IMG/VR virus record: IMGVR_UViG_3300028883_000085
Location: 1 to 39,471 of that record
DNA length: 39,471 nucleotides
Strand: one strand, 5' to 3'
Source of the DNA: a virus
In this document: one piece after another, positions 15,289 through 32,366 of the stretch
Layout: each line of letters starts with the position of its first letter
Numbering within the stretch: the stretch's first letter is position 1
Program-made: the position numbers and the translations under genes
The notes under the pieces: generated by a model
Told to the model about the DNA's origin: nothing
The model's database searches: none
Seen by the model: the letters and a program-made list of their open reading frames with translations, nothing else

Positions 15289-15443
15289 TAGCCACCAAGG
15301 CACCAAGGCCACCAAGAGAATCAAAGTCAAAAGCTGTTTTTATTGTTAAATTCAAAGTCAAAGGCCTTTTTTTTTGGTTTAAACCCTAAAAAATGGTTTC
15401 TTGTTTTTTGCCTTTCTTGGTGTCCTTCGTGCCTTTGTGGCTA
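15289..15443. repeat. Hairpin element copy 1 (155 bp), abutting a gene start
   Basis: TAGCCACCAAGGCACCAAGG at one end and TTGGTGTCCTTCGTGCC...GTGGCTA at the other form imperfect terminal inverted repeats of about 30 bp around an AT-rich interior (CAAAGTCAAA direct repeats). It fills the gap between two tail genes. On the minus strand the element ends GGTGGCTAACAGGTTTTGAC just before the ATG at 15274, so the downstream gene's Shine-Dalgarno site lies at the element edge. Same length as copy 2. Confidence 0.85.
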
Positions 15444-15450
15444 TATTCCT

Positions 15451-16149
15451 TTAAACCGCTTCGTAATATTCGACCAGCAGGTCGTAAATCACATCATCCT
15501 GCTGGTCGATGCTCTGCCGGATCGCCAGGACCTGGGCTTTTTGTGCCGTTTCATCCAGGGCGCTGACGGTAAAGGCGATCAGGTCCCCTTCCTGCAGGGC
15601 GGCCACCTGGTCGGCGTTGTCATCGGTGCGCAGCACGCGCAATTTGCGCCGGTGTTTGTGATAGGTGTTGTCATTAACGGCCACGCCGCCGACAGCCTCG
15701 GCCTGGTCCTCATCAACAATTAGCGGGTGCGTGATGTCGTCGAGCCAGATAACCGGGATTGTTTCGTGTGTTTCGTCGGCTTCGTCGGCGGTCAGGCTGA
15801 TATCGCGCAAAACAACAACATAGGGCGGCGGGCTGCTGGTCGCCTCGATGACCCCGGCGGTGATCGTCCAGCGCCAGGTGATCGCTTCAGCCGATTGCCC
15901 GGTCGGCGTGGCGGTAATGGTCGCGGTGATGCGCGCGCCGTAACTGCTCGAGGACCCCGGCGTGTACTCGATGCGCCGGCCGTCGGTGATCGCGGTTTCT
16001 GTGACCGTGACCGACGTGCCGTCGATCGCCAGGGTCACGCCCGCGTCGACGCCGTTGACCGTGTCGATCACATCGACGGTCAGGGACCAATCGCGGCGCA
16101 CGTCGATGCTGTTGGCTGCAGGAGCTGTGTTTTGTAGTTCAATCGCCAT
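15451..16149 (-). CDS. Tail-region protein with Ig/FN3-like N-terminus (232 aa)
   Basis: Residues 1-95 read as a beta-sandwich (NTAPAANSIDVRRDWSLTVD, GVTLAIDGTSVTVTETAITD, ARITATITATPTGQSAEAIT) like bacterial Ig domains in which each repeat opens with 'xxPxxNxxxV'. Residues 105-232 form a second domain with a His/Lys-rich middle (VNDNTYHKHRRKLRVLRTDD) and an acidic end. The lambda-like order (tail hub, then this) suggests a tail-tip or fibre-connecting protein. The start lies 9 nt after AAGG at the end of hairpin element copy 2. Confidence 0.6.
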   Translation of the reverse strand: MAIELQNTAPAANSIDVRRDWSLTVDVIDTVNGVDAGVTLAIDGTSVTVTETAITDGRRIEYTPGSSSSYGARITATITATPTGQSAEAITWRWTITAGVIEATSSPPPYVVVLRDISLTADEADETHETIPVIWLDDITHPLIVDEDQAEAVGGVAVNDNTYHKHRRKLRVLRTDDNADQVAALQEGDLIAFTVSALDETAQKAQVLAIRQSIDQQDDVIYDLLVEYYEAV

Positions 16150-16166
16150 GGGTCAAAACCTTCTAT

Positions 16167-16321
16167 TAGCCACCAAGGCACCAAGGACACCAAGAGAATC
16201 AAAGTCAAAACCTGTTTTTATTATTAAGATCAAAATCAAAGCCTTTTGCTTTTTGTTTAAACCCTAAAAAAGGGCTTCTTGTTGTTTGCCTTTCTTGGTG
16301 TCCTTCGTGCCTTGGTGGCTA
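16167..16321. repeat. Hairpin element copy 2 (155 bp), supplies a stop codon and a ribosome site
   Basis: Same terminal inverted repeats as copy 1, here nearly perfect (TAGCCACCAAGGCACC... / ...CGTGCCTTGGTGGCTA). On the minus strand the first three bases of the element (TAG, 16321-16319) are the stop codon of the 77-aa gene. The far end (GGCTAATAGAAGGTTTTGAC) carries AAGG 9 nt before the ATG at 16149. The element therefore defines both the end of one gene and the start signal of the next. Confidence 0.85.
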
Positions 16322-16552
16322 TATTTGCTTGTTTTTGTAAGGCACTTTTTTATTCAGCCATTCCTGGCGTTTTTTACATCCGCCGCAGGGTTTTATGCCG
16401 ACGGCTTTTGTCGCTTTGGCGATGGTGTCGCCGAGGCCTCTGGACCGCTTGACCTCTTTGCCGTTGTGGTACAACTTGCCGCTTGATGATCCTTTAACAA
16501 TCATGGACAGCGCCAGAGCCGCCAGCGGCGATAAAATGTAACCGGGATACAA
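16319..16552 (-). CDS. Small Cys-motif phage protein (77 aa)
   Basis: The C-terminal half carries the motif GLGDTIAKATKAVGIKPCGG then CKKRQEWLNKKVPY. I recognise this as a widespread small phage protein in environmental Gram-negatives, in which the CGGCKKRxxWLN signature is strongly kept; its function is unknown. The N-terminus (YILSPLAALALSMIVKGSSS) is hydrophobic and may be membrane-associated. Overlaps the upstream gene by 52 nt in another frame. Its TAG stop is part of hairpin element copy 2, so the last residues (YKNKQI) may be insertion-derived. Confidence 0.7.
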   Translation of the reverse strand: MYPGYILSPLAALALSMIVKGSSSGKLYHNGKEVKRSRGLGDTIAKATKAVGIKPCGGCKKRQEWLNKKVPYKNKQI

Positions 16553-17190
16553 TCTTCACAGCCATAAGTGCAATCACCAGGACTGACAGAACCCGGTATT
16601 TCTGTGCTGCCCATAGATGAGGCTGACCAGCAAGATGGCGGCTGACTGGTGTTACACCAGCCATAATCGCGGTAAGTATCAAGACCATTTTCTGCATAAA
16701 CATAAGCCGCGTATAAAAGGACCCAATAGGTCGATAGCTCACCCGGTGTCATTGAATAACCGCAATCATCAACAACCTGTTGCGCCAAATCTTCGACCGC
16801 GCTGCTTCCGCTTGAAAGCTCAAAGGCTAAGACCGTCTCGATATAGTTTTCCTGTACGGCATTTGACCGTCTGGCATATACAACCGCCTGCTGTACCGGA
16901 TCGCACGAATCGGTGACTGTGATCGTATAAATCGCGCTTTCTCCTGGCGTGCAGGTCCCCGTGCTGGTCACAATTCCTGTTGCGCTGTTTATTGCACCCT
17001 TGTCGATCGAATAGGTGTAAGGCTCGACCCCGCCGCTGGCTTCATATTCAGCGCCGGTGAAAATCGTTGTCGGCCCCGTCAGGAAAAGTTCGTCGCAACC
17101 GGCGCAAAGCTCGATATCTGTTTCAGGACATATCGCAATATCTCCTCCGCCGTTCAGTTCCTGATCTGTGCATAAAACGATGTCAGTCAT
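16501..17190 (-). CDS. Cysteine-rich tail-region protein (229 aa)
   Basis: An unrecognised protein with 15 or more cysteines in CxxC-like or spaced pairs (AICPETDIELCAGCDELF, GSVSPGDCTYGCEDC). An Ig-like centre (TTIFTGAEYEASGGVEPYTY, TPGESAIYTITVTDSC) recalls the SprB/PKD-type 'GGVEPYTYS' repeat of secreted adhesins. The Cys pattern suggests disulfide- or metal-stabilised virion surface protein. It lies just after the tail hub (3-nt gap). Its C-terminus overlaps the next gene. Confidence 0.6.
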   Translation of the reverse strand: MTDIVLCTDQELNGGGDIAICPETDIELCAGCDELFLTGPTTIFTGAEYEASGGVEPYTYSIDKGAINSATGIVTSTGTCTPGESAIYTITVTDSCDPVQQAVVYARRSNAVQENYIETVLAFELSSGSSAVEDLAQQVVDDCGYSMTPGELSTYWVLLYAAYVYAENGLDTYRDYGWCNTSQPPSCWSASSMGSTEIPGSVSPGDCTYGCEDCIPVTFYRRWRLWRCP

Positions 17191-17193
17191 AAG

Positions 17194-19515
17194 TCAGCAC
17201 GTAAAAGTAAAGGGGTAGTCGTTGCCGTCAATCGTTGCCGTCGCCCCGTTGCTGCCGGTCACAGCGTTGGTAAAAACAAAGTAGCCGCCGGCATCGGTGA
17301 CCGTACCGCCGCCGGAATCAAAGGAGACCGGGACCCCGGCATGTGGTACGCCATCGCAAATAAGACGGCGCTTGCCGCTGATATCTCCGCTTGTTCCGCT
17401 ATCGCCATCAGATCCGCTGGCTGTCGTATCCGTCCCGCTCGGGTAGCTGACCGTTCCGACGCCGTCGTCGTCTGTCACCACGCGCACGATATCGATCGAC
17501 AGGCGCGCAATCAGACTGCCGCACATAGCACTGATATAACAGCGGCCGGTGTATCCCCCGGCGGTCAGGTCGGTTGTTGCAATTCCGCCTGACGTGTAGG
17601 CGGTTGTCGTTGACAGTTCCGCCCCGGTCGGTCCCTGCAGGGTAAACTGCACAGGGGTCCCGTCGGTCACGGCGCTGCCGCCGCTCTGTTCAACCGTGGC
17701 GGTGATGGTCGCCGTTCCCGCTTCGTTTTCGACCTCGGCCGTGGTGTTGTAGCTGACATCGACCTGGCTGGTGCCAAAGGTGAAATATTGCGCGGCGTTG
17801 GTCACGCGCATGTAAAGGCGATGCTCGCTTGATACATAACGATAACCGGCGTATTGCAGGTCCAGCGCGCTGCTGATCTGCACCGATCCGGCGACCGCGT
17901 TGGCAACAACGACGTAACCATCGAACCCGATCGTTCCGTCGGCATATTGTTCGCTATGAACGGTCAGGTTGGTTTCGCTGACCGCCGTCTGGCCCTCGAT
18001 GGTCGTGCCGACCAGGATCTGCGCCTTGTCGCTGGCCAGCTCCATGCTGTCGATCGCGCTGCCGAGCAACGACAACCAGGCGCTGCCCTCCTGGCTTAAT
18101 GCCGCGGCGGTGATCTTGGCCGTGCCGACGGTCGTGCCTGATCCGATCTCGACCGTCGCCTGGCCGGCGGCATCGCATAAACTTGATGACTGCCCCAGGC
18201 TGGCGGATAATGGCGCGGAATTATAGGTTTCATAATCGATGATCACGGCCGTGCCGGAAGGCCCTGGCGTGATCCCCAAGGTGATGCTGGTCGTGTTTTG
18301 CGTGTAGCTGCCGCCGTTGGCAAAATTGGTGCCGCTGCGGTTAACGTCCGTCGCGCGATAAACGCCGATCACGCGGCCGATGGCGTTGTCGGTGCTGACC
18401 GCTAAATCTCCGGTGGTGTCCTGTTCTTCGCCGATAATTTCGTCGGCCTGGTCGGCCAATGTCCAGCTGACCGTTTCGGCCTGGGTATAGCTGACAATAA
18501 ACAGCTGCGTGGCCTGGGTCGGCACGGTGATTTCGTCGGCGTCAAAACTGGTCGGCGTGATCCGCGTGCCCTTGACCGGGCTTTGTTGCGTGCCGCTGTT
18601 GAGCCAGACCGCCTGCACGGCGTAACAGCCGCTGACCGGAATGGTCGTATAAGATCCGGCGCTGATCGCCTCATCAATCACCGCTTTATGCTGCACCAGC
18701 TGACCGGAGGAATCGTAAACCGTGGCCGTGGCATCGGCCGTGCTGGTTCCATCGGCGTCGATACTGGTCGGAGAAACAGAAACGGAAACAACCGGCAAGG
18801 TCGGGCGGGTATAATCGGCCTGTTCGCCCTGGACGCGCACGGCGTTGCCAGGCTGCTTGCCGCGCAGAAGCTCATAATTTAAAGACTGCGCATCTGAAAA
18901 TGTCCTGGTCGCTGTTTCGCTTAAGGCGCGTGACGGATGGTCATAAACTTCGAAGTTCAGCCCGTCGAGGCTGACGCGCAGCTTTGCGCCGCACATCTCG
19001 ACCAGTTCGCGCAGCAGTTCCAGGCGCGGCCGGCGCGAAACCTGCCAGCGGCCGCCGGGGATGGTCGGATCGATAGCGGCCAGCCAGATAACCCCGACGG
19101 CGTCGCCGGTTAAACTGGCGGCATGTTCGGTACAGATCAGTCGCGCCATGTCGCTGGCGCTGATATCGTTTAAAAAATCATAAGTCAGCGGCCGAAACTC
19201 GGTAATAATGCCCGCCCAGGCGCGCCCGCTGATCTGCGGATAATCTTTGGCGCTTTCGATGCTTCCGCTGAGTTTTTCGATGCGGAAATAACGGCTGTAA
19301 TCTTCATCTGTGATGCGCAGGCGCGCGCGGGTGCGGTTGGTTTCCGGGTCAAGCAGCCCGGCAGGGATGTCGATATCGGCGGCAAATGTCAGCGCGATGT
19401 CTGGTATAACCTGGCTGTCGCTGTTGGTGCCCGCGCTGCAGCTGCGCACCGATCCCTCCGGGACCTCGACCCAGGCGGGCGTGGCGTTTTCGACTTCGAT
19501 CAGCCAATGGCTCAT
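17194..19515 (-). CDS. Tail hub/tip protein with bacterial Ig-like domains (773 aa)
   Basis: Residues 1-240 resemble the baseplate-hub fold of tail proteins (gp27/GpD type): FRIEKLSGSIESAKDYPQIS, SARDMxRLIC-type helix (SASDMARLICTEH), and RPRLELLRELVEMCGAKLRV followed by NFEVYD. Residues about 245-700 are Ig-like modules of the Big type, e.g. VSVSVSPTSIDADGTSTADA and EAGTATITATVEQSGGSAVT. The C-terminus (GSDGDSGTSGDISGKRRLIC then a small beta domain) may bind the host surface. It follows the tape measure with a 4-nt overlap. It would close the tail and contact the cell; the Ig modules probably give weak adhesion. Confidence 0.75.
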   Translation of the reverse strand: MSHWLIEVENATPAWVEVPEGSVRSCSAGTNSDSQVIPDIALTFAADIDIPAGLLDPETNRTRARLRITDEDYSRYFRIEKLSGSIESAKDYPQISGRAWAGIITEFRPLTYDFLNDISASDMARLICTEHAASLTGDAVGVIWLAAIDPTIPGGRWQVSRRPRLELLRELVEMCGAKLRVSLDGLNFEVYDHPSRALSETATRTFSDAQSLNYELLRGKQPGNAVRVQGEQADYTRPTLPVVSVSVSPTSIDADGTSTADATATVYDSSGQLVQHKAVIDEAISAGSYTTIPVSGCYAVQAVWLNSGTQQSPVKGTRITPTSFDADEITVPTQATQLFIVSYTQAETVSWTLADQADEIIGEEQDTTGDLAVSTDNAIGRVIGVYRATDVNRSGTNFANGGSYTQNTTSITLGITPGPSGTAVIIDYETYNSAPLSASLGQSSSLCDAAGQATVEIGSGTTVGTAKITAAALSQEGSAWLSLLGSAIDSMELASDKAQILVGTTIEGQTAVSETNLTVHSEQYADGTIGFDGYVVVANAVAGSVQISSALDLQYAGYRYVSSEHRLYMRVTNAAQYFTFGTSQVDVSYNTTAEVENEAGTATITATVEQSGGSAVTDGTPVQFTLQGPTGAELSTTTAYTSGGIATTDLTAGGYTGRCYISAMCGSLIARLSIDIVRVVTDDDGVGTVSYPSGTDTTASGSDGDSGTSGDISGKRRLICDGVPHAGVPVSFDSGGGTVTDAGGYFVFTNAVTGSNGATATIDGNDYPFTFTC

Positions 19516-20957
19516 CGGTCGGCCTCATCGTCCAGGGCGTCGGCTAGGGCATCTACTGAGTTAAAAGATCCCCCTCCCTTTCCTTTGAGTAGTTCAGCGT
19601 TTAGACGTCGAGCAGCCTCAAATTGGCGGTTATAGGCGGCTGTAGCCAGATCGGCTGCGGCGGCTTTTTTCTTTTCCGCTTCTGCGGCTTTTTCTCCGCC
19701 TTCTGTTTGTGACTTTATTAATCCATCAACCGCAGGCTGCAAAAACTCCTTAATTTCATCTGCCGCCGTTTCGGCCATGCTTTTAAACTTTTTCTCTGTA
19801 TCGTCCTGCTTAATCTGTAACCTTCCAAGCGCCAACTCTGCAGCCTCAAGTTCTTTTCTTAATCCATTTCCCCCCTCAATGCGGTTGATCGTGTCGCCGA
19901 TATCTGCATAGGTGGCCTTAACGCTAGCGTCAGTATTGACTCCTGGAATACTGCCGATTCCCTCTAATAGGTGGATGAAAGCAAGACGGAGGTTATTTAC
20001 CAGCTCAAGCCCCCAGATTTGCGCATTTTTCAGCAGGATATCGAAAAGCTCACGGATCTGCTTAAAACCTGACAATGCCAGAATCAGCATTTCAGCAGCT
20101 TTGATCGCTCCGCTAACGATCCCTGGAAGGGCCTGGAAAATGGCGATCAGGCCGGTCATGATCTTGTCGCCGAAGCCCTTGGCCAACTCGTCGAAGCGGC
20201 CGGACTTTTTCAGCTCGTTGATTTTATCGATCACGCCTTTAATGGCGTTTTTCATGCCGTCAAAAACACCGGACCCCATGACCGACTGGCGGAACTGAAA
20301 CCAGGCGTCTTTCAGCATCGATGTCAGTCCGTCCCAGGTGTTGGCCATTTCGCCTGTTGCGCCTTTGAACTGGCTGCCGGCCTTGTTCCATTCCGACCAA
20401 AGCTGTTTCCTGGTTTCTTCTGCGCTATAGGTCACACCAGCCTGGAACCCGAGCATAGAGAGTATGCCACGCTCTCTGAACAAGTCCGCAGAGGCCGCTC
20501 CGGCAGACAACATACGGCTGACCTGCTCTGTCGTCTGTTGAATCCCCAATCCTGACGCGGCAGCCAGATCACCGATCAGCGGCATCCATTGAGTGATTTC
20601 ATCGACGCCGCCCTTCATGATACCGGCTAATTGTGTTGCGGACGCCATGATCTCGTTGTACTCAAACGGAACCCGACCGGCATACTCGGACATCTCTTTG
20701 AATAGCCGGTTGCCTTCCTTCTGGCTGCCAAGCAGGACCTTCAGACGGACCTGATAGTTTTCTGTTTCGCGCGCCGCATTGATAAACGATTTTGCCAGCA
20801 CACTGCCGCCAAGGGCCGTACCAAGGCCGACGATTCCGGCTTTCAGGCTGAAAACGCTGCTAGCCAGAGACTTTATCCGCCCACGAATGGTGCGGAAAAC
20901 CTTGCTGGCTTTGTCTTTAGCGCTGACAATCAGCTGGATACGGCTGTTCTTTGCCAT
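19512..20957 (-). CDS. Tail tape measure protein (481 aa)
   Basis: The N-terminus (MAKNSRIQLIVSAKDKASKV, then FRTIRGRIKSLASSVFSLKA) is typical of tape measure proteins. Residues 90-230 contain the conserved NEIMASATQLAGIMKGGVDE and LIGDLAAASGLGIQQTTEQV motifs of the lambda/TP901-type core. Hydrophobic helices at about 265-330 could insert into the membrane. The C-terminus is a Lys/Glu/Ala coiled coil. At 481 residues the predicted tail is short, roughly 70 nm by the usual 0.15 nm per residue, about half of lambda. Confidence 0.9.
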   Translation of the reverse strand: MAKNSRIQLIVSAKDKASKVFRTIRGRIKSLASSVFSLKAGIVGLGTALGGSVLAKSFINAARETENYQVRLKVLLGSQKEGNRLFKEMSEYAGRVPFEYNEIMASATQLAGIMKGGVDEITQWMPLIGDLAAASGLGIQQTTEQVSRMLSAGAASADLFRERGILSMLGFQAGVTYSAEETRKQLWSEWNKAGSQFKGATGEMANTWDGLTSMLKDAWFQFRQSVMGSGVFDGMKNAIKGVIDKINELKKSGRFDELAKGFGDKIMTGLIAIFQALPGIVSGAIKAAEMLILALSGFKQIRELFDILLKNAQIWGLELVNNLRLAFIHLLEGIGSIPGVNTDASVKATYADIGDTINRIEGGNGLRKELEAAELALGRLQIKQDDTEKKFKSMAETAADEIKEFLQPAVDGLIKSQTEGGEKAAEAEKKKAAAADLATAAYNRQFEAARRLNAELLKGKGGGSFNSVDALADALDDEADR

Positions 20958-20960
20958 ACT

Positions 20961-21059
20961 TTATGCCTCGGTTTTTAATTTCCGATAATGCTTGCGCCAG
21001 GCCGATATAAACAGGCGCGGCCAACGCAACAAGTAGGTGATTCCTTTAAAAACGATCAT
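20961..21059 (-). CDS. Micropeptide at the tail-chaperone position (32 aa)
   Basis: A 32-codon frame begins right after the tail-tube stop (TAAATG) and fills the gap to the tape measure: MIVFKGITYLLRWPRLFISA, then WRKHYRKLKTEA. It is an amphipathic, basic helix. The site between tail tube and tape measure normally holds tail-assembly chaperones (lambda G/GT) of about 100-250 aa; none is present. The peptide has no Shine-Dalgarno site of its own and would rely on coupling. Real translation is uncertain. Confidence 0.4.
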   Translation of the reverse strand: MIVFKGITYLLRWPRLFISAWRKHYRKLKTEA

Positions 21060-22163
21060 TTAAAACAACCCGATAAAAACGCCTCCGGTGATTGTCATCG
21101 GATCAGACCAGGAAAAGTCGCCCTCATCCTCACCGATCTCTGGGCCGGAGCGGGACAGGCCGACAAGCTCGATATGAAGAATATTCCCGGCGGTGTCGCC
21201 CTTGGTCATGCGAGCATTGACCGTGCTTCCGTCAAAAAATCCGGTGATCGGCGCGGCATCTTCGACCCATGGCGTGAGCGTGGCTTGTGCTTCAAATTCG
21301 CCTGACCAGGGCAACTCCGAAAAGCCCGTGCTGTTGATCCCGCCGCGGCTGCGGCGCGTGGTCAGGTTAAATTCAAGCGATTTCATATCCAACGCTGAAC
21401 CATCAAACACCAGTTGGCATTCTGTTCCGATCAGCGGACTTTGATCGTCATAGCTCGGGCTGTTCGGGTCGGTCGCGGCCGATTCCGCGCAGGTCAGGCT
21501 GCGGACCCCGAACTGCCCCTGGATCACGGCGCGCTCGTTGACGCCGACGGACAGCGATTCGCAGACCGCATCGGTACATAGCAGGCGCAACCCGTCGAGA
21601 TACTGGTCAAGGGTTAAATATTGATGATCTTCCGTGCCGAGATGCAGGTAGCAGACCCCGGCGGCAATGGCGTCGCCATCGGCTGGGGCCTGGCTGAAAG
21701 CCTCGGTAAAGGTCAGATCCTGACCGGACACGGCCGACACGCGGCCGATTTCGTAACCGCTGCCGATTTCGACGCGCAGCAACTGGCCGACATGGTAGGT
21801 GCCGCTGGTCGCGGTCAGTGTGGTTGTGGTTCCCGCGCCATTGATCGTGTCGGCAACGTTGGTGTATTCGGTGCCGAGCAGGGTTTCGAGCAACGCGGAA
21901 AACTCCGGCGCGGTCCCGGCCGTTCCGCTGCCGCGCAGTTCCAGCGTCAGCGATCCCTCACCCCAGCGGCCGCCAGCGGCCTGCAAGGACGGCCAGCGGC
22001 TACCGCGGATAAGGCCGCGATCGATCTGCTCACCCTTTGGCTGCACAAACGATGATTCCATGGTCGGATCGATGGCCATTGCATCCGTAATGGTGGCCGG
22101 CGATCCCTTCGCGGATTGGATGCCCGCATAAGCTGTCGTTTTCTTTTTCTGGTAAATGGCCAT
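21060..22163 (-). CDS. Major tail tube protein (367 aa)
   Basis: Position between the tail terminator and tape measure and a long beta-rich sequence identify the tube protein. It opens MAIYQKKKTTAYAGIQSAKG, continues with SLTLELRGSGTAGTAPEFSA LLETLLG (a conserved 'P-E-x-x-x-L-L-xxxLG' element) and has paired strands (TLTATSGTYHVGQLLRVEIG). The end (SDPMTITGGVFIGLF) is typical of an exposed last strand. It resembles tube proteins of phages with Mu-type heads more than lambda gpV. GGAGCT precedes the ATG. Confidence 0.8.
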   Translation of the reverse strand: MAIYQKKKTTAYAGIQSAKGSPATITDAMAIDPTMESSFVQPKGEQIDRGLIRGSRWPSLQAAGGRWGEGSLTLELRGSGTAGTAPEFSALLETLLGTEYTNVADTINGAGTTTTLTATSGTYHVGQLLRVEIGSGYEIGRVSAVSGQDLTFTEAFSQAPADGDAIAAGVCYLHLGTEDHQYLTLDQYLDGLRLLCTDAVCESLSVGVNERAVIQGQFGVRSLTCAESAATDPNSPSYDDQSPLIGTECQLVFDGSALDMKSLEFNLTTRRSRGGINSTGFSELPWSGEFEAQATLTPWVEDAAPITGFFDGSTVNARMTKGDTAGNILHIELVGLSRSGPEIGEDEGDFSWSDPMTITGGVFIGLF

Positions 22164-22177
22164 GAGTTAAGCTCCTT

Positions 22178-22624: not shown

Positions 22625-22626
22625 GA

Positions 22627-23409
22627 TCAGCTCCTGAGATAACGCTGGACCCCTCGGTCAAGCGCGTTTAAGACGTTGCGTTCAAGCCCTGAAGCTCCCT
22701 TATTGGCGATTCCGTGGAAATCGAAGCGGCTGCGGTAATGCGGCTGACCACTGAAAATAAAGATCGGCAATATGCGATTCCTGGCCCGTCCTCCGCCGAT
22801 ATTACTGCTTGGCACGGTGCGATAAATTCCGGTTTTGTTCGGATGAACAAAATAGCGAATCCCGGCACGGGCATCGCGGCTGCGTGATTTTTTCGCCCCG
22901 CGTGAAAATGGCTGCATGTCGGCTGTTCCACCGCGCGAGCCGCTGTAAAAAACTTTGTTGATAAAGGCTGTTGTCACGTTTCCGTAGCGATCGACATCGG
23001 CGAACTGCGTCGGAATCAAAAACGGCTTACCTGGCGGCGATACTCCGGCGCGTTGAAGCGTTTTTTCAAAACCTTTCAGCTTGCGATCTTCGCCATAAAC
23101 CTGAGAGCGTAGAGCGGCCGGAGCATCGAACATGCCGATCTCACGCCGCGACCTGCGGCCAAACTCCCACTTGAAAGCGACGGCTGCGCGCAGGTCGTCT
23201 TTTTCAGCGGGAAAGAAAAACAGGCTGCGCCTGGTCCATGGCGTCGGTTGATCGATGTACATCGGCATGGCCTGCTGCACGGCCTGTTTGCTCTGTTTGG
23301 CGGTCTGCGTCATCCCCAGCGCGACCCACTTCGGGACGCTGTCGCCTAAAAAACTGAACTGGCGTTGCAGCTTGTCGACGTTTAAGGCTTTGACGCTGAT
23401 TTCGAACAT
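22627..23409 (-). CDS. Minor tail/tail-completion protein, gpZ-like (260 aa)
   Basis: A basic protein with a helical start (NVDKLQRQFSFLGDSVPKWV) and the typical gpZ/HK97 gp10-like motif MTQTAKQSKQAVQQAMPMYI DQPTPWTRRSLF. Many Arg-Gly segments follow (SRGAKKSRSRDARAGIRYFV HPNKTGIYR). Such proteins act at the head-tail junction during tail completion. The start lies 6 nt after AAGGG at the end of hairpin element copy 3. It is followed by gpU-like and tube genes, as expected. Confidence 0.75.
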   Translation of the reverse strand: MFEISVKALNVDKLQRQFSFLGDSVPKWVALGMTQTAKQSKQAVQQAMPMYIDQPTPWTRRSLFFFPAEKDDLRAAVAFKWEFGRRSRREIGMFDAPAALRSQVYGEDRKLKGFEKTLQRAGVSPPGKPFLIPTQFADVDRYGNVTTAFINKVFYSGSRGGTADMQPFSRGAKKSRSRDARAGIRYFVHPNKTGIYRTVPSSNIGGGRARNRILPIFIFSGQPHYRSRFDFHGIANKGASGLERNVLNALDRGVQRYLRS

Positions 23410-23423
23410 TTAGAACCCTTTGT

Positions 23424-23522
23424 TAGCCACTAAGGCTCGAAGAACACCAAGAAAATCAAAATCGTTTTTTTTGTTTAACCCCTTAAAAGCCCTTCTTTGT
23501 GCCCTTTGTGTCTTAGTGGCTA
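23424..23522. repeat. Hairpin element copy 3 (99 bp), degenerate
   Basis: A shorter, more diverged relative of the other copies: TAGCCACTAAGGCTCGAAGA at one end and GTGTCTTAGTGGCTA at the other, with paired changes that keep the outer stem (CCACTAAG/CTTAGTGG). Its interior has lost about 55 bp. On the minus strand its end supplies AAAGGG 6 nt before the ATG at 23409. The compensating changes indicate that the hairpin is maintained. Confidence 0.75.
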
Positions 23523-23573
23523 TTTTTGGGCCTTCATATTTGCCGTGTATCGCACGATCTTAAGGCCGTGCGG

Positions 23574-25819: not shown

Positions 25820-25850
25820 TTTATTTTCTCCTTTTCAGATTGATGGTTGA

Positions 25851-26276: not shown

Positions 26277-26308
26277 ATTTTTTTCTCCTTATAAAAAAAT
26301 TGAGTGAT

Positions 26309-26812
26309 TTACTTTTTCAGAACCCTGGCGCGACCGTCTTTTTCGGCTTTTTTCCAAGCCATAAAACGATCAAAGTTTCCGCTGAATTCTGCCTGCAGGT
26401 CCTCGGACTGATCCCACTCGGCCTTGGCGCGCTCCTCGATGGTCCCTTGCGGCTTGCCTTCGTTCCCGGCATCGCCGGAAGGCGCGAGCGGATCCGGCGC
26501 ATCATCCTGGTAACCCTTCAGGTTCCTGGCCTGTTCCGACTTAACGGCTTCAAGCACTTTGACAGCCGCTTCAGGACCGGTGGTTTTACCGTCGAACTTC
26601 AGTTCCGTGATCAGCTTTTCATGACCACGCACGGTTTGTGCCTCAACATCTTGAATGCGCTGGCGTTCTTGCTCGGCACCTTCCGTTTTTGCTGTTGAGG
26701 TTTTTTCTTCAATATCCGCCTCGGCGACATAACCTTCTCGCGCAGCGGCTTCGACATCCTTGACCAGGTCGGGGAATGCAGCCCGGAGCTGGTCGACATT
26801 TTCAATTTTCAT
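26309..26812 (-). CDS. Nested scaffold protein, Nu3-like (167 aa)
   Basis: Within the protease gene, the ATG at 26812 (codon 295, in frame) is preceded by AAGGAG at 6-nt spacing, an ideal ribosome site. Translation from it gives MKIENVDQLRAAFPDLVKDV and the whole acidic scaffold tail without the protease. Lambda makes Nu3 from the same kind of internal start in gene C, and free scaffold is needed in many copies per prohead. Evidence is the start signal and the family precedent. Confidence 0.75.
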   Translation of the reverse strand: MKIENVDQLRAAFPDLVKDVEAAAREGYVAEADIEEKTSTAKTEGAEQERQRIQDVEAQTVRGHEKLITELKFDGKTTGPEAAVKVLEAVKSEQARNLKGYQDDAPDPLAPSGDAGNEGKPQGTIEERAKAEWDQSEDLQAEFSGNFDRFMAWKKAEKDGRARVLKK

Positions 26813-27694
26813 GTCTTGCTCCTTTTTTTTGTTCGCCGCGACAGCACCGGCCCCGGCTTCATCATCGTTTTTGATTTTGACGATCAGGTCTTCGAGCGTG
26901 GAGACACCGTCCACAAGACCGGCAGCAACAGCTTGCCGACCGACGAAAACACGACCGTCTGCCATATTGGTGAGTACCGTTTCGACATCGACGCCACGAT
27001 TTCTGGCAACCGCATCGACAAAAACTGAGTAGAGGTAATCAACTTTTGCCTGAATGTCGGCGCGGCCCTCTTCAGACAGCGGCGCGTACTGGCTTGAAAT
27101 CCGCTTATATTTTCCAGCAGAGATCTCAGTCGTCTTGACGCCGACCTTCTCTTCCCACTTTGAAATATCGAAATGCGATGCGACCACGCCGATCGAGCCC
27201 GTCATCGTTGTATTATCTTTGATAAAAACCTTGTCGGCCGCTGACCCGAACCACATGGCGGCGCTGGCCATCAGACCGTCTGCCAGGGCATAGATAGGCT
27301 TATCTCCACGGCTCTGATAAATAAAATCTGCGAGCTCCGCCGTACCATCGACCGTTCCGCCAGGGGAATCGACCTGCAGGATCACTGCCTCCACCGCAGA
27401 ATCTTCGAGGGCCTCAGCAATCTGCTGCTTTGCCAGGTCGGTCGACACCCCACCGGATATCTGAGTAAACAAATTCATCCGCTTACCAACAACACCTTCA
27501 AGCGGAAGGACAGCGACTCCCTCGATCAAAGAATATGCCGACTGCGTGTTATCCAGCGGCCTGCCGATACGGGCCTCAACCGCTTCGATATCGATCTTTT
27601 CTCCACGCAGATGTGTGGCATAGATGTGCTGGATCTCTTCCAGCATTTCCGGCTTGATCGCCCAGGGGCCTGATACAATATCAATCAGCTTCAT
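26309..27694 (-). CDS. S49-family capsid maturation protease with C-terminal scaffold (461 aa)
   Basis: Residues 1-275 form a SppA/ClpP-like protease: LIEGVAVLPLEGVVGKRMNL, EAVILQVDSPGGTVDGTAEL, and catalytic Ser144 in DGLMASAAMW with Lys195 in SAGKYKR. Residues 290-461 form an acidic, Glu/Lys/Ala-rich scaffolding tail. This is the lambda C/Nu3 arrangement: the protease cleaves scaffold and itself during prohead assembly. The portal gene upstream overlaps it by 14 nt. Confidence 0.92.
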   Translation of the reverse strand: MKLIDIVSGPWAIKPEMLEEIQHIYATHLRGEKIDIEAVEARIGRPLDNTQSAYSLIEGVAVLPLEGVVGKRMNLFTQISGGVSTDLAKQQIAEALEDSAVEAVILQVDSPGGTVDGTAELADFIYQSRGDKPIYALADGLMASAAMWFGSAADKVFIKDNTTMTGSIGVVASHFDISKWEEKVGVKTTEISAGKYKRISSQYAPLSEEGRADIQAKVDYLYSVFVDAVARNRGVDVETVLTNMADGRVFVGRQAVAAGLVDGVSTLEDLIVKIKNDDEAGAGAVAANKKKEQDMKIENVDQLRAAFPDLVKDVEAAAREGYVAEADIEEKTSTAKTEGAEQERQRIQDVEAQTVRGHEKLITELKFDGKTTGPEAAVKVLEAVKSEQARNLKGYQDDAPDPLAPSGDAGNEGKPQGTIEERAKAEWDQSEDLQAEFSGNFDRFMAWKKAEKDGRARVLKK

Positions 27695-29327
27695 GGTTTT
27701 GCCTTTCTTCTATAATCGACTGAACGGACTGCTTGAGTGCCGCCTTGATTGTTTCGATGTCTTTTTTGCTTTCCACAAGACCGGCATCCAGTCGCTTCTG
27801 ATGCTCGCGGGCACGCTTGCGGTGCTTGTCGTCAAAATCTCCGCCGGTCAGCTGTTCAATCTCTTCCTCGATCGTCGAAACACCCTCGGCGATGCGCTTT
27901 GACGCGGCCTCGATCTCTTCTTTTTCGTTGATCATGCCTCGCGGATCACCAATCCAGGCCGATCCGGTCCAGGCTTTGCGCGTCATAACGTCGGAAAAAT
28001 AACCGGGAGCGTAAAAACGCCCAAGAGCGACCATTTCGTCAAAAAAGGTTTCGTAAATCAGCTGATTGAAGCGCGCGGCAAACCACTTGCGGCGGCCGCT
28101 GAACATCCGCCAGGCTTCGAGCATCGCGGCACGAGAGGCTGAATAACTGCTGGAAAAATGCTTGATCAGGACCTCGAACGGAATTTCGATGGCCATTCCG
28201 ATCTGGCGCAGGCAGGACAACCAAAAAGGATCAAACTTGCCGTTTGGTCTGTTCGGATCGTTAAACTGGACCTCTTCGTCCGGCAGCAACCCGACGACAG
28301 AGCTTGAATCAAGATCAATATCTGACACGTCGCGATTCGCGGCGTTGTTATCCTGAAGGAACTGGTTCCAATCCGGAGCTTCTCCGGTCGTCGATTTGAT
28401 GAAATAAGTAATCAGCGCGCTACCGACAGCGGCATCCAGTTCGGCCTCTGTCAGTTTGCTGAGCTGTTTCAGGGTTTCGATAATCGGGGCCAGCTCTGGG
28501 ACCCCGCGCGACTGGTTCGGGCGCAGCTTGCGGAACACATGAATCATATTCCTCCGTCCGGTGTTGATTCCGAACGCTGGTATAGGCGGATACCATTCTT
28601 TTTTGTAGCCGCTGATCGTCGCGCCTGGATGGCGTTTGAGCACATGGTAGGCCTTCGGCGCTCCGTTTTTATCTTTTTCAATACCACCGCTCAGGGTTTC
28701 CGTGTCGCGCTTGCTGTTATTATTGCAGACACGATCCGCCTCGATCAGCTGAACAGCTAACTGGTAAGGAAAACCGTCTTTGCGCTCGACCTTCGGCAGC
28801 AAGGCAAAAACATCGCCATTTTCAAACGTCTGTCTGAAAGCCAGAGCCTGGAGCTCGTTAAAAGGCTGGGTGCGTTCGACATCGCAATAAGTCGAATGGG
28901 CCCAGAGACTCCACTCTCGCTTGATCTCTTTTTCGCGCTGGGAAGCTTCGTCTTCTGTCAGTCCGAGATATTCATAATCAATAGCAGGCTTGAGCCGCAG
29001 GCCTGTCCCGATGACATTCGTCACCATGGTTCCGCAGGCCCCGGTTGCGATTGGTTCGTTGCGGATCAGGTCGCGCGATCTGTCGCGCAACGATGGGAGA
29101 TCTGGCAGGATGTCGCTGTCAGCATCCCCTCCAGACGTTGTCCAGCTTTTTGTTCTTTTTCTGGTTTTTTTAGCTCCGGTGTACCCTCCACCAACGGCGG
29201 CGACGGCAATCCTGTCGGCCATGCGCCGGCGGCCAGATGACGGGCTGAAAAAATTAACAACCTGGTCGACCAAGTTCGGGCGTGCTTCTATTTCTTTTCC
29301 TGATATTTTAAAGCGGACGGGCTTCAT
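27681..29327 (-). CDS. Portal protein, lambda gpB-like (548 aa)
   Basis: Length and motifs match the lambda-type portal family: RDRSRDLIRNEPIATGACGT, NVIGTGLRLKPAIDYEYLGL, FRQTFENGDVFALLPKVERK and the ADRVCN element, then GVPELAPIIETLKQLSKLTE and the long stem helix. The dodecameric portal forms the channel through which the terminase pumps DNA and the tail attaches. It follows the gpW-like gene (4-nt overlap) and precedes the protease gene, as in lambda W-B-C. Confidence 0.92.
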   Translation of the reverse strand: MKPVRFKISGKEIEARPNLVDQVVNFFSPSSGRRRMADRIAVAAVGGGYTGAKKTRKRTKSWTTSGGDADSDILPDLPSLRDRSRDLIRNEPIATGACGTMVTNVIGTGLRLKPAIDYEYLGLTEDEASQREKEIKREWSLWAHSTYCDVERTQPFNELQALAFRQTFENGDVFALLPKVERKDGFPYQLAVQLIEADRVCNNNSKRDTETLSGGIEKDKNGAPKAYHVLKRHPGATISGYKKEWYPPIPAFGINTGRRNMIHVFRKLRPNQSRGVPELAPIIETLKQLSKLTEAELDAAVGSALITYFIKSTTGEAPDWNQFLQDNNAANRDVSDIDLDSSSVVGLLPDEEVQFNDPNRPNGKFDPFWLSCLRQIGMAIEIPFEVLIKHFSSSYSASRAAMLEAWRMFSGRRKWFAARFNQLIYETFFDEMVALGRFYAPGYFSDVMTRKAWTGSAWIGDPRGMINEKEEIEAASKRIAEGVSTIEEEIEQLTGGDFDDKHRKRAREHQKRLDAGLVESKKDIETIKAALKQSVQSIIEERQNHEAD

Positions 29328-29539
29328 CGCATCCCCAATCGTTTAACGGCACGGCGATTAGGTGTGCGCTGAATGACGCGGGTGTTCCAGACATCGACAC
29401 CTTTCTGGATTTTTTCAAGATCGGCAAGCGTCAGACGATCGCCGTCGATTTCAACGACCTGACCTCCTAAAACAGCTGTTTCAGCGTCGAGATATTCCTG
29501 CAGCTTTGCTTCGCATGTTGCTAAATCGAGTCCGGCCAT
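29324..29539 (-). CDS. Head-tail joining protein, gpW-like (71 aa)
   Basis: A 71-residue protein with two helices around a short beta hairpin (LATCEAKLQEYLDAETAVLG, GQVVEIDGDRLTLADLEKIQ). This is the gpW fold: helix, hairpin with a Gly-Asp turn, helix. In lambda, W sits between the large terminase and portal genes and is required to close filled heads, and the order is the same here apart from the inserted HTH gene and cassette. AAGGGG lies 11 nt upstream, slightly far. Confidence 0.8.
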   Translation of the reverse strand: MAGLDLATCEAKLQEYLDAETAVLGGQVVEIDGDRLTLADLEKIQKGVDVWNTRVIQRTPNRRAVKRLGMR

Positions 29540-29628
29540 TACATACTTTTCCCCTTAAAAATAAGGATGAAATTCTGAAGACGGCCGTTATTATGAAATG
29601 GTTTTCAGATGATCAGGGAGAGGGCTTT

Positions 29629-29720
29629 TGCACGCATTTGCACGTGGGTGCACAAAATGTTGTGGATAATATTTAATTTAAACACTAAATATTGGATTAT
29701 TAAACGTTTCAAACTTGACA
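29629..29720. other. Second iteron cluster with DnaA box (crr-like candidate)
   Basis: TGCAC occurs at 29629, 29639 and 29649, exactly 10 bp apart, the same core as the origin iterons at 37134-37436. Just beyond is TGTGGATAA (29661-29669), a perfect DnaA box on the complementary strand (TTATCCACA), then a strongly AT-rich stretch to 29710. P4-type replicons need a second iteron site (crr) away from the origin. This cluster fits that role or a second origin. Confidence 0.5.
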
Positions 29721-29743
29721 CACTACCAATGTAGTGGTGTAGA
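29715..29743 (+). promoter_or_regulatory. Promoter with an embedded operator palindrome
   Basis: A consensus -35 TTGACA (29715-29720) is followed after 17 bp by TGTAGA (29738-29743). The spacer contains the perfect inverted repeat CACTAC-CAAT-GTAGTG (29721-29736). A protein bound there would block polymerase, so this promoter is probably repressed in one state. It points to the 42-aa plus-strand gene. Confidence 0.55.
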
Positions 29744-29752
29744 TATAAAACA

Positions 29753-29780
29753 ACGGCTCAGGGGTGAGGCCCTGAGCCGT
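29753..29780. terminator. 11-bp hairpin, terminator on the minus strand or 5' leader hairpin on the plus strand
   Basis: ACGGCTCAGGG and CCCTGAGCCGT form a perfect 11-bp stem with a 6-nt loop. On the minus strand it is followed by TGTTTTATAT, so it may terminate leftward transcription coming from the terminase genes. On the plus strand it lies a few bases after the predicted start of the TTGACA promoter and would cap that RNA. Confidence 0.5.
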
Positions 29781-29843
29781 CGTAAACATGGAGTCGTCAT
29801 TCATTGATGTTGGCGCATTAAAAATGACAACCCTGTACTCTTA

Positions 29844-29849
29844 TATAAT
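29844..29849 (+). promoter_or_regulatory. -10 promoter element TATAAT before the 42-aa gene
   Basis: A perfect TATAAT lies 60 bp upstream of the ATG at 29909, followed by the inverted repeat TTGAC-N7-GTCAA in the leader. No good -35 is present at 17 bp (AAAATG), so an activator or extended contacts may be needed. It would be the second, nearer promoter of the plus-strand cassette. Confidence 0.4.
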
Positions 29850-29908
29850 TGTGTAGAACATTTGACGGCTCCTGTCAACTTTCAAACCGAGTCAAAAAGG
29901 AGCAAAAC

Positions 29909-30037
29909 ATGTCAAATAAAGTCAAATGCGTACCAAAAAGAACAAACAAGAAGCCTGGCCCAAAAACCGTAACAATACCAGGACACAAACGGTCGAAGCC
30001 AAAACCGATCAAAAAAACATGCAACAAGCCTAAATAA
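29909..30037 (+). CDS. Lys/Pro-rich basic peptide in an autonomous plus-strand cassette (42 aa)
   Basis: AAGGAG lies 5 nt before the ATG. The peptide, MSNKVKCVPKRTNKKPGPKT then VTIPGHKRSKPKPIKKTCNK PK, has 13 Lys, 2 Arg, 7 Pro and 2 Cys in 42 residues and almost no acidic residues. Proline spacing suggests an extended chain able to bind DNA, RNA or a polyanionic surface. It stands alone on the plus strand within the minus-strand late operon, with its own promoters and terminator. This is the definition of a moron: a gene expressed independently, likely from the prophage. No homologue recognised. Confidence 0.7.
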   Translation: MSNKVKCVPKRTNKKPGPKTVTIPGHKRSKPKPIKKTCNKPK

Positions 30038-30056
30038 GTAAACAGCGCCAACATGA

Positions 30057-30084
30057 AGGGCCGGGAAACCGGCCCTATTTTTTT
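30057..30084 (+). terminator. Rho-independent terminator of the plus-strand cassette
   Basis: AGGGCCGG-GAAA-CCGGCCCT (8-bp stem, GAAA tetraloop) followed by ATTTTTTT. It is the best terminator in the window. Its T tract overlaps the stop codon of the minus-strand HTH gene (30083-30085), so the cassette and the late operon are packed together without spare sequence. Confidence 0.9.
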
Positions 30085-30352
30085 AACACTCCCTAGCCAT
30101 TTCAGCTTTTTTTATTCTCTTCTGATTATATTCAGTGACCGACAATGCCGTAATCCTGGTCCCCCGGCGGCCAGGGTTGTCATTGGCGTCGACCAGATCG
30201 CCTTGTTCGACCAGGTGATAAACCTTACGCGCCGACACACCGAGAACCTCCGCCGCTTCGACAACAGAATAAGATAGGTTTTCAAGGATGTGCTGCCGCT
30301 TGACGCGTTCGATATCGGACGAAGAAATGTTCAACCGTGGCATTTTAGTCAT
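30083..30352 (-). CDS. Helix-turn-helix protein between terminase and portal genes (89 aa)
   Basis: The start is taken as the ATG at 30352 (MTKMPRLNISSSDIERVKRQ), which overlaps the terminase stop by 8 nt; the longer frame lacks a start signal. Residues 30-70 form a MerR/excisionase-type HTH: YSVVEAAEVLGVSARKVYHL, then VEQGDLVDANDNPGRRGTRI with the usual basic wing and 'ITALSVTEYNQKR' helix. It may regulate the cassette or late genes, binding for example the CACTAC-CAAT-GTAGTG operator 350 bp away. It breaks the usual terminase-W-portal order. Confidence 0.75.
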   Translation of the reverse strand: MTKMPRLNISSSDIERVKRQHILENLSYSVVEAAEVLGVSARKVYHLVEQGDLVDANDNPGRRGTRITALSVTEYNQKRIKKAEMAREC

Positions 30353-32231
30353 CGTTTTTTTTCCTCTTGCTGGAAGTCCGGCGGCGGGGCTTCGGAGGCT
30401 CATAGGTTCCTGCGGCAATCTGTTTATACTGCCCCTCCAAACTATCCCAGTTCGGATTGAGATAATGCAGCCCGATATAGCCGTAGTTGGTCAGATCGAG
30501 CTCTTCGTTTTTGGCGTTGGCTTTCTTTTTCAGCCAGAAGCGTTTTTTGCGGCCGTACTTGTCATATTGGTCGACGGGCTTCTCGGACGTGAGCTGCTGG
30601 AAGCGTTCATAATCCATGTCCGGCGGGAAGTGCATGAACCCGGGACCGTGATCTTCGACCTGCATATAATGGTGGAGATCGTTCTTGCCGATGATGGTAT
30701 TGACGATCAGCAGCGGAACATGGCGGCGCTGCTTGCGGCTGGGCCAGCTCATGCGCACCAGGGGTGCGTCGTAACTGCTGGAGCCTTTGAGGCCGAACAC
30801 CTGGCGGGTAAACCGTGAGCGCAGATAACGGTAGGCCCGTTGTGTGGCGTCTCCCCCGGTATCGATAAAGGTGGCCGCAATCTTCATTAGCGCTCCGGAT
30901 TCGTGGTCCCAGGTCCGCTGGAGATATTCGTCCAGCTGATCCCAGACCGCATCCTCAGACGGGGATCCGGCAAATATCTTCAGATCGATGCGCCAGGATT
31001 CATACCCGCGCCCGAAAGCGGTCAGCCGTGCTTCCAGGCGGTTGGTCTGGATGTCCACGGTACAGATCAGCAGCAGCGCTTTTTGCGGTACCCGCCATTT
31101 TGCCCCATCCGGCCACCACTGATGACGACGGGCGTGCAGGACCTCGGCAGCGGTCAGGTCTTCTTCGCTGATGCCGCTGAAACTCAATCCTGCCCAGTTG
31201 TTGTACCAGGCTTTGAGCTTTTCCGGCTGGTCCTGGGCCTCGAGCCATTCGGCGACGCAATCGGACAGGCTGCGGAACGGGGTGACCCAGGCGGGGACGT
31301 GGACACCGACGGCATAGGGATACTCGACGTCATGCCGTGGTTTGATCGTTGCGTGCTGCAACGCCTGGTCGCGGTCATGATCGGACCAGCGCGCCTGGCA
31401 GTGGGCACATTCGTACCAGGCGGAGCGCCGGCGGCGGATGGTACGGGCATCGGCTTCGGTTTCACCGTCGATGGTCTGTTGCCCGGGCCATTTGAATTGT
31501 TCCCAGACCATGGGCTGGAAGGTGCCGCACTCCGGGCATGGAACCTCGACATCATAGATCACATCGCATTCGGCCAGGGCGTCATCCACCGGGCACCCGG
31601 CATCCGTCGGGGCCCCGAGCTTGATGACTTTTTTGCCGTATTTTTCATAGGTGGCCGTGCGGACTTCAGCTTCCTTGATGTTGACGACGTTCTTGTATTT
31701 ACCTATCTCATCAAGGATCACCCAGCGGTAGGCCTCGGAGGCCAATGACACCTGGCTTGTGGCCCAACCGATTTCGATGGTAGCGCCGGTGGCCAGGTTG
31801 ATACTGTAGATTGTGGTGTCATCCGGGTTCTTGCTCATGATCTCGCGCAGGGACTCGGAATCCTCGATCATGGGAATAATGCGTTTTTTTGAATGTTTCT
31901 TGACCGATTTCTCATCGGCGAGCACAACCAGGGCCGCGTCGCTGCCCGTGGAATAATCGATCTCGCGGCCGAGGACGTTATAAACCGCGTCGCTGATCCC
32001 GGTCTGGCTGCCCTTGGCGATCACCAGTACGCGCACATGCGGCAGCGCGGCCAGGTCCATGACCATGGCGCCGACTGGATTGCCGCTGTTGCGCCACTTC
32101 CCGGACTTGGCCCCGCGGCGCAGGTAGCGCTCTTTCTCGGCCCATTCTGACGGCGGCAACTTCTCCCGCTTCTGCATGATGCGCCGCTCGGCCGGGCGTA
32201 ATGGATATGTGAGATTTTCGGCTGTGTTCAT
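30345..32231 (-). CDS. Terminase large subunit, GpA family (628 aa)
   Basis: Clear lambda gpA-type terminase. Residues 70-80 (VIAKGSQTGIS) form the atypical Walker A with KGSQTGIS, and 169-176 (YRWVILDEI) the Walker B. A zinc-binding cysteine quartet follows (CPECG near 235, CAHCQ near 275). The C-terminal nuclease starts with CTVDIQTNRLEARLTAFGRG and continues through FIDTGGDATQRAYRYLRSR. The family makes staggered 12-nt cos cuts, consistent with the 12-bp terminal repeat. Start after hairpin element copy 4, with AAGG 10 nt upstream of the ATG. Confidence 0.95.
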   Translation of the reverse strand: MNTAENLTYPLRPAERRIMQKREKLPPSEWAEKERYLRRGAKSGKWRNSGNPVGAMVMDLAALPHVRVLVIAKGSQTGISDAVYNVLGREIDYSTGSDAALVVLADEKSVKKHSKKRIIPMIEDSESLREIMSKNPDDTTIYSINLATGATIEIGWATSQVSLASEAYRWVILDEIGKYKNVVNIKEAEVRTATYEKYGKKVIKLGAPTDAGCPVDDALAECDVIYDVEVPCPECGTFQPMVWEQFKWPGQQTIDGETEADARTIRRRRSAWYECAHCQARWSDHDRDQALQHATIKPRHDVEYPYAVGVHVPAWVTPFRSLSDCVAEWLEAQDQPEKLKAWYNNWAGLSFSGISEEDLTAAEVLHARRHQWWPDGAKWRVPQKALLLICTVDIQTNRLEARLTAFGRGYESWRIDLKIFAGSPSEDAVWDQLDEYLQRTWDHESGALMKIAATFIDTGGDATQRAYRYLRSRFTRQVFGLKGSSSYDAPLVRMSWPSRKQRRHVPLLIVNTIIGKNDLHHYMQVEDHGPGFMHFPPDMDYERFQQLTSEKPVDQYDKYGRKKRFWLKKKANAKNEELDLTNYGYIGLHYLNPNWDSLEGQYKQIAAGTYEPPKPRRRTSSKRKKNDD

Positions 32232-32247
32232 AAAGTTAAAACCTTGT

Positions 32248-32366
32248 TAGCCACCAAGACACGAAGAACACCAAGAGAATCAAAAACTTTAAATCCTGCT
32301 TTATGGTTAAAATCTAAAGTCAAAATCTTTAAGACTTTCTTCGTGTCCTTTGTGCCTTGGTGGCTA
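32248..32366. repeat. Hairpin element copy 4 (119 bp), upstream of the large terminase gene
   Basis: TAGCCACCAAGACACGAAGA at one end and TCGTGTCCTTTGTGCCTTGG TGGCTA at the other form the outer stem; ACACGAAG/CTTCGTGT changes are compensatory relative to copies 1-2. It separates the small and large terminase genes. Its minus-strand end GGTGGCTAACAAGGTTTTAA places AAGG 10 nt before the ATG at 32231. Confidence 0.8.

Follow-up and report, generated by a model that had tools for sequence, protein, structure and literature searches.

In 23S rRNA, intervening sequences encoding the four-helix-bundle protein IVP (PF05635) consist of a small ORF placed between complementary ends. REP, REPIN and BIME elements are short, palindromic and intergenic and often lie no more than 15 nt from a stop codon, and for E. 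coli REPs at that distance an effect on the upstream gene has been reported (PMC12306157 and its reference 17). Pneumococcal BOX, RUP and SPRITE repeats—small, interspersed and possibly mobile—are over-represented between convergent genes, and BOX elements can provide the upstream gene’s stop codon (PMC3049150). Many multicopy intergenic sequences are on record for Geobacter metallireducens, which belongs to the same class as the relatives described below; the available part of that paper’s text does not give the present sequence (PMC2700814).

We analyzed the window, i.e. the entire 39,471-nt stretch of viral DNA, for a set of hairpin elements noticed in a preliminary description. All four copies (w1–w4; Table 1) were found where that description had placed them, and all lie within the minus-strand late operon, as claimed. 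They span 99–155 nt, lack coding content and have inverted ends of 28–37 nt. The shared terminal inverted repeats likewise proved real: searching the window with the arm consensus TAGCCACNAAGNCACNAAGNNCACNAAG (≤3 mismatches) recovered both arms of every copy and nothing else (eight arms in all), whereas 100 shuffles gave no match. Predicted folds of w1–w4 were stable, with energies of −52, −71, −31 and −54 kcal/mol (z −5.5, −9.1, −3.9 and −9.7), and Rfam returned no match at the four element sites.

With inverted TAGCCAC-NAAG-NCAC-NAAG units at both ends, the copies can be assigned, on sequence grounds, to a CCACNAAG hairpin-repeat superfamily. This arm superfamily is shared with loci of GxxExxY (TIGR04256 / PF13366 PDDEXK_3), whose arms comprise CCACNAAG, CCACAGAG and CGCAAAG units of 8–9 nt; one Malonomonas locus has window-type arms, yet the shorter window copies encode nothing. 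The family differs from REP, REPIN and BIME in sequence, in its arms of 8–9 nt tandem units and in its location, namely in tight operon junctions and not beside RAYT genes. Unlike BOX, RUP and SPRITE repeats, it occupies mainly co-directional junctions, with an edge that also gives a leader. In contrast to 23S rRNA intervening sequences, the window elements sit between protein genes, and the flanks of IVP genes belong to other repeat families.

Table 1 Hairpin elements, their edges and the genes they precede (window coordinates).
Feature	Position	Strand	Remarks
w1 hairpin element	15289..15443	-	155 nt, inverted ends
w2 hairpin element	16167..16321	-	inverted ends; 90% identity with w1, 878 nt apart
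w3 hairpin element	23424..23522	-	99 nt
w4 hairpin element	32248..32366	-	119 nt; separates the small from the large terminase gene
w1 start-facing edge	15275..15288	-	ACAGGTTTTGACTG, leader of 84-aa gene; missing from relative L175
w1 stop-facing edge	15444..15453	-	holds TAA (15451-15453) now ending the upstream 232-aa gene
w2 start-facing edge	16150..16166	-	ATAGAAGGTTTTGACCC, leader of 232-aa gene
w3 start-facing edge	23410..23423	-	ACAAAGGGTTCTAA, new leader of minor tail gene
Apparent old Shine-Dalgarno site GAAGG	23531..23535	-	now separated from its start codon by w3
w4 start-facing edge	32232..32247	-	ACAAGGTTTTAACTTT, leader of large terminase gene; missing from relatives L137, L138, L139
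w4 stop-facing edge	32367..32376	-	holds small terminase TAA (32374-32376)
Terminase large subunit gene, led by w4	30345..32231	-	phrog_15, E 1.4e-140
Minor tail protein gene, led by w3	22627..23409	-	phrog_1924, E 1.5e-39
232-aa gene, no assigned function, led by w2	15451..16149	-	relative in L175, 70% identical
84-aa gene, no assigned function, led by w1	15020..15274	-	

We consider it probable (roughly 0.7) that the elements are MITE-like hairpin repeats from bacterial chromosomes that inserted at late-operon junctions, with edges that restore translational punctuation. The four copies would thus be non-coding members of a mobile superfamily whose coding members would carry a GxxExxY gene (PDDEXK_3 nuclease fold) enclosed by short-period inverted arms of this type, and their source was probably a Desulfuromonadia-like host of the phage. 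Each copy would have inserted where a stop and a start lay close together or overlapped. Its entry side would then give the stop, either a TAA within the edge or a TAG within the arm, and its exit side the Shine-Dalgarno stretch AAGGTTTT. With a stop at entry and a ribosome site at exit, the downstream gene would be initiated from the element edge, independently of its old site and of upstream coupling, and we propose that punctuation restored by the edges in this way is what makes the insertions tolerable. At a zero-length gene junction, an insertion that would normally harm the downstream gene might become tolerable if the element brings its own stop and ribosome site. As a transcribed hairpin between cistrons, it may additionally alter mRNA processing or stability.

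A chromosomal origin draws on the distribution of the arms. The preliminary description had suspected chromosomal relatives, and rightly so: the same arms recur in the chromosomes of bacteria from many phyla, the two-arm pattern returning 48 chromosomal stretches, and the idea of a phage-specific element has to be given up. Nearest to the window copies are those of Malonomonas, Desulfuromusa and other delta genomes, i.e. Desulfuromonadia, with a patchy occurrence within the order (11 of 58 genomes carry elements; a reversed control pattern gave zero matches). Chromosomal elements were intergenic in 42 of 42 cases, usually at tight operon junctions with the stop codon a median of 10 nt and the next start a median of 32 nt away. 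Most lie within co-directional gene runs and 6/42 between convergent genes. Since chromosomal copies hug stops while the start codon is usually 20–40 nt off (a minority have a start right after the edge), the claimed position directly before start codons holds for phages (6/6 copies) but usually not for chromosomes, and is mainly a phage feature.

This placement also bears on the possibility, which we regard as tenable but do not favor, that the elements are retained for operon function, the hairpin behind a stop slowing 3′ decay or lowering translation of the upstream gene and so setting expression ratios. The stop-codon effect reported for REPs fits such a role, as does the finding that 69% of chromosomal tandem copies lie ≤15 nt from the stop, versus 9–27% under null models. 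Elements moreover recur at orthologous junctions across genera and can fill several consecutive junctions within a single operon. At the glcD/glcE and mut/meaB junctions, the gap between stop and start is filled by unrelated hairpin families depending on the genome, which points either to a strongly preferred insertion site or to selection favoring a hairpin at that place. However, several genomes have no insert at those orthologous junctions, and once gap sizes and the sparing of the start region are allowed for, the elements show no bias towards the stop end of the gap (P 0.38), so tolerance could explain the stop proximity. Nor do the stems appear to be under pairing constraint. The window contains only one clearly compensatory position (T-A, position 8 of w3), the other arm differences being mostly mismatches or G-U, and across 48 elements strict pairing at variable paired positions amounted to 0.21, 0.23 and 0.25 against expected values of 0.25, 0.45 and 0.22. 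Pairing being no better than chance, we rejected the earlier assertion that compensatory changes maintain the stem.

The reading of the edges as punctuation draws on the junctions themselves. On the coding strand, the four start-facing edges read CTAACAGGTTTTGACTG-ATG, CTAATAGAAGGTTTTGACCC-ATG, CTAACAAAGGGTTCTAA-ATG and CTAACAAGGTTTTAACTTT-ATG and, as had been claimed from these sequences, place an AGG 6–10 nt upstream of the ATG, the AGG(G)TT leader directly adjoining the element. Throughout the analysis genes were called by a simple script, and single distances may shift with start-codon choice. At the other side, the upstream ORF of w2 ends on the element's terminal TAG (16319-16321). The outward edge motif of the Desulfuromonadia branch, AAAAYCT, adjoins the window arms clearly at the four start-facing ends and weakly at the stop-facing ones.

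Comparison with element-free relatives is consistent with leaders having arrived with the insertion at three of the four sites. At the w1 site of L175, the stop TGA overlaps the ATG, and the upstream protein ends in EYYELVS* as opposed to EYYEAV* in the window; at the w4 site of L137, L138 and L139, the small-terminase stop abuts or almost abuts the ATG; and at the w3 site, L174 has GGAGG where the window has GAAGG. Relative to these phages the leaders at w1, w3 and w4 are new, which supports the proposed role of the edge as leader. The origin of the leader is ambiguous for w2, because element-free L175 already has TAAGGGGTTTTAA-ATG, i.e. an AAGGGGTTTTAA leader, at this position, behind a different upstream gene. 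The relatives supplying the empty sites are only 55–73% identical, and leaders could therefore have changed before insertion. At these distances, the compared sites revealed no clear target-site duplication; a TTAA duplication considered at w4 was dropped, as the other copies lack it.

Alternatively, insertion may have been random, with survival restricted to gaps bounded by a stop and a native Shine-Dalgarno sequence. In that case AAGGTTTT would simply be a common native leader of these organisms. The w2 site and the usual distance of chromosomal starts agree with this, as do AGGTTTT-like leaders preceding meaB and glycolate-oxidase (glcE) genes beside other repeat families or no repeat; in chromosomes, GGTTT leaders were not significantly more frequent at hairpin junctions (6/97 versus 8/304, P 0.09). 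We nevertheless judge such survivorship unlikely, given the missing leaders at w1, w3 and w4 and the old GGAGG-like site still recognizable beyond w3. The phage’s other leaders are nearly all GGAG/AGGAG-like, with GGTTT in about 3 of ~44 (counted by eye). Besides, the chromosomal edge motif (outward AGRTTTT) is enriched not only at start-facing ends (19/37, P 6e-12) but also at stop-facing ends (18/47, P 6e-7), where a ribosome site is not needed, and is thus, at least in part, a feature of the element itself.

The strong intergenic hairpins predicted here would also suit transcription attenuators or terminators within the late operon, but this is improbable with all copies inside one operon, among them w4 between the terminase genes, both products of which are required, and with so few chromosomal copies between convergent neighbors.

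Returning to the mobile-repeat interpretation, we infer that mobility is driven by GxxExxY. Its gene occurs in 30 of the 31 genomes that carry elements, compared with 3 of 14 controls; in the exception, G004, none was detected, though this genome may be incomplete. Exact-type arms bracket 7 of 29 GxxExxY genes versus 2 of 2,344 random windows, superfamily arms 16 of 29 versus 2 of 1,800 random placements, and 26 of 29 have inverted flanks. Because longer superfamily versions bracket this gene, the phage copies look like non-coding, MITE-like derivatives, and with no GxxExxY gene in the phage itself they would be derivatives as opposed to full members. We rejected an origin as REPIN/REP-type elements moved by the REP-associated tyrosine transposase (RAYT, Y1_Tnp), a highly improbable source despite the palindromic, short, intergenic and stop-proximal nature of the elements and the occurrence of Y1_Tnp genes in 28 of the 31 genomes, since none of 27 such genes is bracketed by family arms and only two have inverted flanks. 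IVP genes in these genomes have inverted flanks in 20 of 29 cases, drawn from other repeat families.

A very common anonymous repeat of environmental genomes is thereby tied to a common protein of unassigned role, the function of which becomes directly testable; searches of the literature (literal sequence, GxxExxY, IVP/PDDEXK_3) returned incidental mentions only and no account of the GxxExxY–arm association. More speculatively, GxxExxY nucleases and their arms might constitute an undescribed, cross-phylum class of mobile hairpins that prefers operon stop/start junctions, its ends shaped by evolution to punctuate translation (a stop at the entry side, a ribosome site at the exit side), with phages carrying and spreading non-coding derivatives and a parallel class combining IVP proteins with other arm families. 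We hold this wider scheme only tentatively.

Searches of phage and plasmid collections gave no DNA match, and the two-arm pattern had none among viral contigs. The three-unit arm pattern matched a single viral contig, the unrelated phage L011, which carries two further elements of the family with the same kind of leader. L344, a prophage-like contig with a 55% identical TerL, has no element of the window family; it harbors other short-period hairpins with AACAGGT-type leaders at two junctions.

The four hairpin copies noted in the preliminary description (w1 to w4) are real and lie at the positions claimed for them: a consensus of the arms, as we call the inverted-repeat ends, matched eight arms, hit no other place in the window and gave no matches in 100 shuffles. 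Each copy fills, or nearly fills, the gap between two co-directional minus-strand genes, w1 and w2 being 90% identical and 878 nt apart, and strong hairpins are predicted for all four. The edge pattern also held, each copy ending on the coding strand with GGCTAA and then AGG(G)TT, 6–10 nt before an ATG. Judged from sequence, the best reading is that the phage carries chromosomal hairpin repeats related to GxxExxY (a PDDEXK_3 protein, TIGR04256) and inserted in stop/start junctions, where their edges would restore translational punctuation.

Hairpin elements and other features of the window
Feature	Positions	Strand	Location or content
w4	32248-32366	minus	gap between small and large terminase genes
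w3	23424-23522	minus	gap between phrog_1501 gene and minor tail gene
w2	16167-16321	minus	gap flanking 232-aa gene, function unassigned
w1	15289-15443	minus	other gap flanking the 232-aa gene
Antisense RNA region	36829-37025	minus	Rfam matches to C4 antisense RNA, isrK, C4 a1/b1 target
Inverted repeat	37133-37175 / 37395-37437		43 nt, 88% complementary, built of GTGCACC units
Direct repeats	8177-8207 / 8433-8463		31 nt, identical

Element-free phage relatives provided a view of the empty sites. At the w4 site, the small-terminase stop abuts the large-terminase ATG or lies 2 nt away (L139, 69% TerL identity; L137 and L138, 73%). At the w1 site, a relative (L175, 70%) has a TGATG overlap; the upstream protein of the window stops at a TAA in the w1 edge. 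The w3 site reads GGAGG-CCGTTT-TTG in L174 (55%), and the window retains GAAGG beyond the far side of the element, with AAAGGG before the ATG. At the w2 site, the relative has a different upstream gene and already TAAGGGGTTTTAA-ATG. This comparison supports the leader, the stretch carrying the presumed ribosome-binding site, having come with the element at three of the four sites (w1, w3 and w4). The ORF upstream of w2 (16319-16552) takes its stop codon from the TAG of the w2 arm itself. It matches only positions 6–48 of the 119-position phrog_32048 profile, and the insertion may have shortened it.

In chromosomal copies, the edge motif AAAAYCT (outward AGRTTTT) occurs within 20 nt of the arm at 19 of 37 start-facing ends (P 6e-12) and at 18 of 47 stop-facing ends (shuffled 0.105, P 6e-7). 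At ends that face a stop codon there would be no selection for a ribosome site, so the motif belongs, at least partly, to the element itself. The glcE and meaB genes also have AGGTTTT leaders where the genome carries a different repeat family or no repeat, and hairpin junctions taken together show no significant enrichment of such leaders (P 0.09).

The window, a viral contig, is 39,471 nt long. Annotated phages and plasmids returned no DNA match. One unrelated viral contig (L011), which has a different major head protein and carries portal and amidase genes, holds two larger elements; both precede genes whose leader reads AAGG(G)TTTT. Another hairpin repeat, GTAGGGGCGCGATTTATCGCGCCC, lies at 2720-2753 and 8619-8652 of this contig and also at a mut/meaB junction (L313). 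A two-arm pattern matched 48 chromosomal stretches from Planctomycetes, Bacteroidota, Desulfobacterota, WOR-3, Acidobacteria, Aminicenantes, Dadabacteria and others. The stretches nearest to the window type belong to Desulfuromonadia (Malonomonas, Desulfuromusa and two delta MAGs). Elements turned up in 11 of 58 genomes of the order that includes Malonomonas, a patchy spread, and a reversed control pattern gave no matches there. Three compared sequences (L088, L089, L102) form composite hairpins, with a second repeat of GGAGAG units nested inside or outside CCACCAAG arms. A Desulfuromonadia prophage-like contig (L344, reverse complement, 16394-16865) shows other short-period hairpins (GAACCTA and GAACCCT types) between genes past the head gene; AACAGGT leaders come after these hairpins.

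Compensatory changes had been thought to keep the stem, which the 48 cross-phylum elements did not bear out: at the three arm positions that the search pattern did not fix, pairing was 0.21, 0.23 and 0.25, no more than expected (0.25, 0.45 and 0.22), the fixed positions being uninformative since the pattern required them. The arms are conserved as sequence. Pairing between the two arms falls below expectation at position 12 (0.23 vs 0.45), as though there were avoidance of perfect palindromes.

Among 42 Desulfuromonadia chromosomal copies, 35 lie between co-directional genes, six between convergent and one between divergent genes, and none inside a gene. Their residual gap is 38 nt, against 291 nt expected under length-weighted random insertion (P < 2e-4); an extra skew towards the stop was absent once the gaps actually seen and the sparing of the start region were allowed for (P 0.38). 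Cross-phylum elements likewise lie near stop codons, many of those between convergent genes having one close by on either side, and one element was called within a gene. The proposed link to start codons thus holds for the phage copies but not as a general rule, the 42 Desulfuromonadia copies lying near stops (median 10 nt) and farther from starts (median 32 nt); the elements are therefore found in tight junctions, of which the phage arrangement is the extreme case.

Two orthologous junctions were compared across genomes. The glcD/FeS-subunit junction holds a window-family element in three of the first four genomes and mut/meaB in two; across the order, these junctions have 0–4 nt from stop to ATG in some genomes. 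In other Desulfuromonadales, the same gaps (L277-L306 and L307-L336) hold hairpins of many unrelated short-period families. Either such junctions draw insertions or a hairpin is useful there.

Of 31 genomes with elements, 30 have GxxExxY genes, with as many as 19 matches per genome, vs three of 14 controls, and one such gene in Malonomonas sits exactly between two window-type arms. Exact-type arms bracket 7 of 29 GxxExxY loci (2 of 2,344 random windows) and superfamily arms 16 of 29 (2 of 1,800), with inverted flanks exceeding all shuffles at 26 of 29. Genes for the 23S rRNA intervening-sequence protein (IVP, PF05635) are likewise present in 26 of 31 genomes vs none of 14 controls, and 20 of 29 have inverted flanks, but from other repeat families; a relaxed test found window-superfamily arms at none of them, and the exact-type test at one of 29. 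Y1_Tnp genes were never bracketed by superfamily arms (0 of 27; inverted flanks at two). Since the arms bracket GxxExxY rather than IVP or Y1_Tnp genes, the best interpretation of the short elements is that they derive from elements carrying GxxExxY and have no coding content. We infer that GxxExxY moves them; the phage itself lacks the gene. The inverted arms flanking the IVP genes (L177-L206) come from another group of repeat families (GTGACCA, AAGTGAA and TAGTCGAGAG types).

Elsewhere in the window, the Rfam matches suggest a P1/P22-like antisense immunity region, and the GTGCACC-unit inverted repeat possibly represents operator or replication sites. The direct repeats lie just ahead of the integrase gene (8465-9625).
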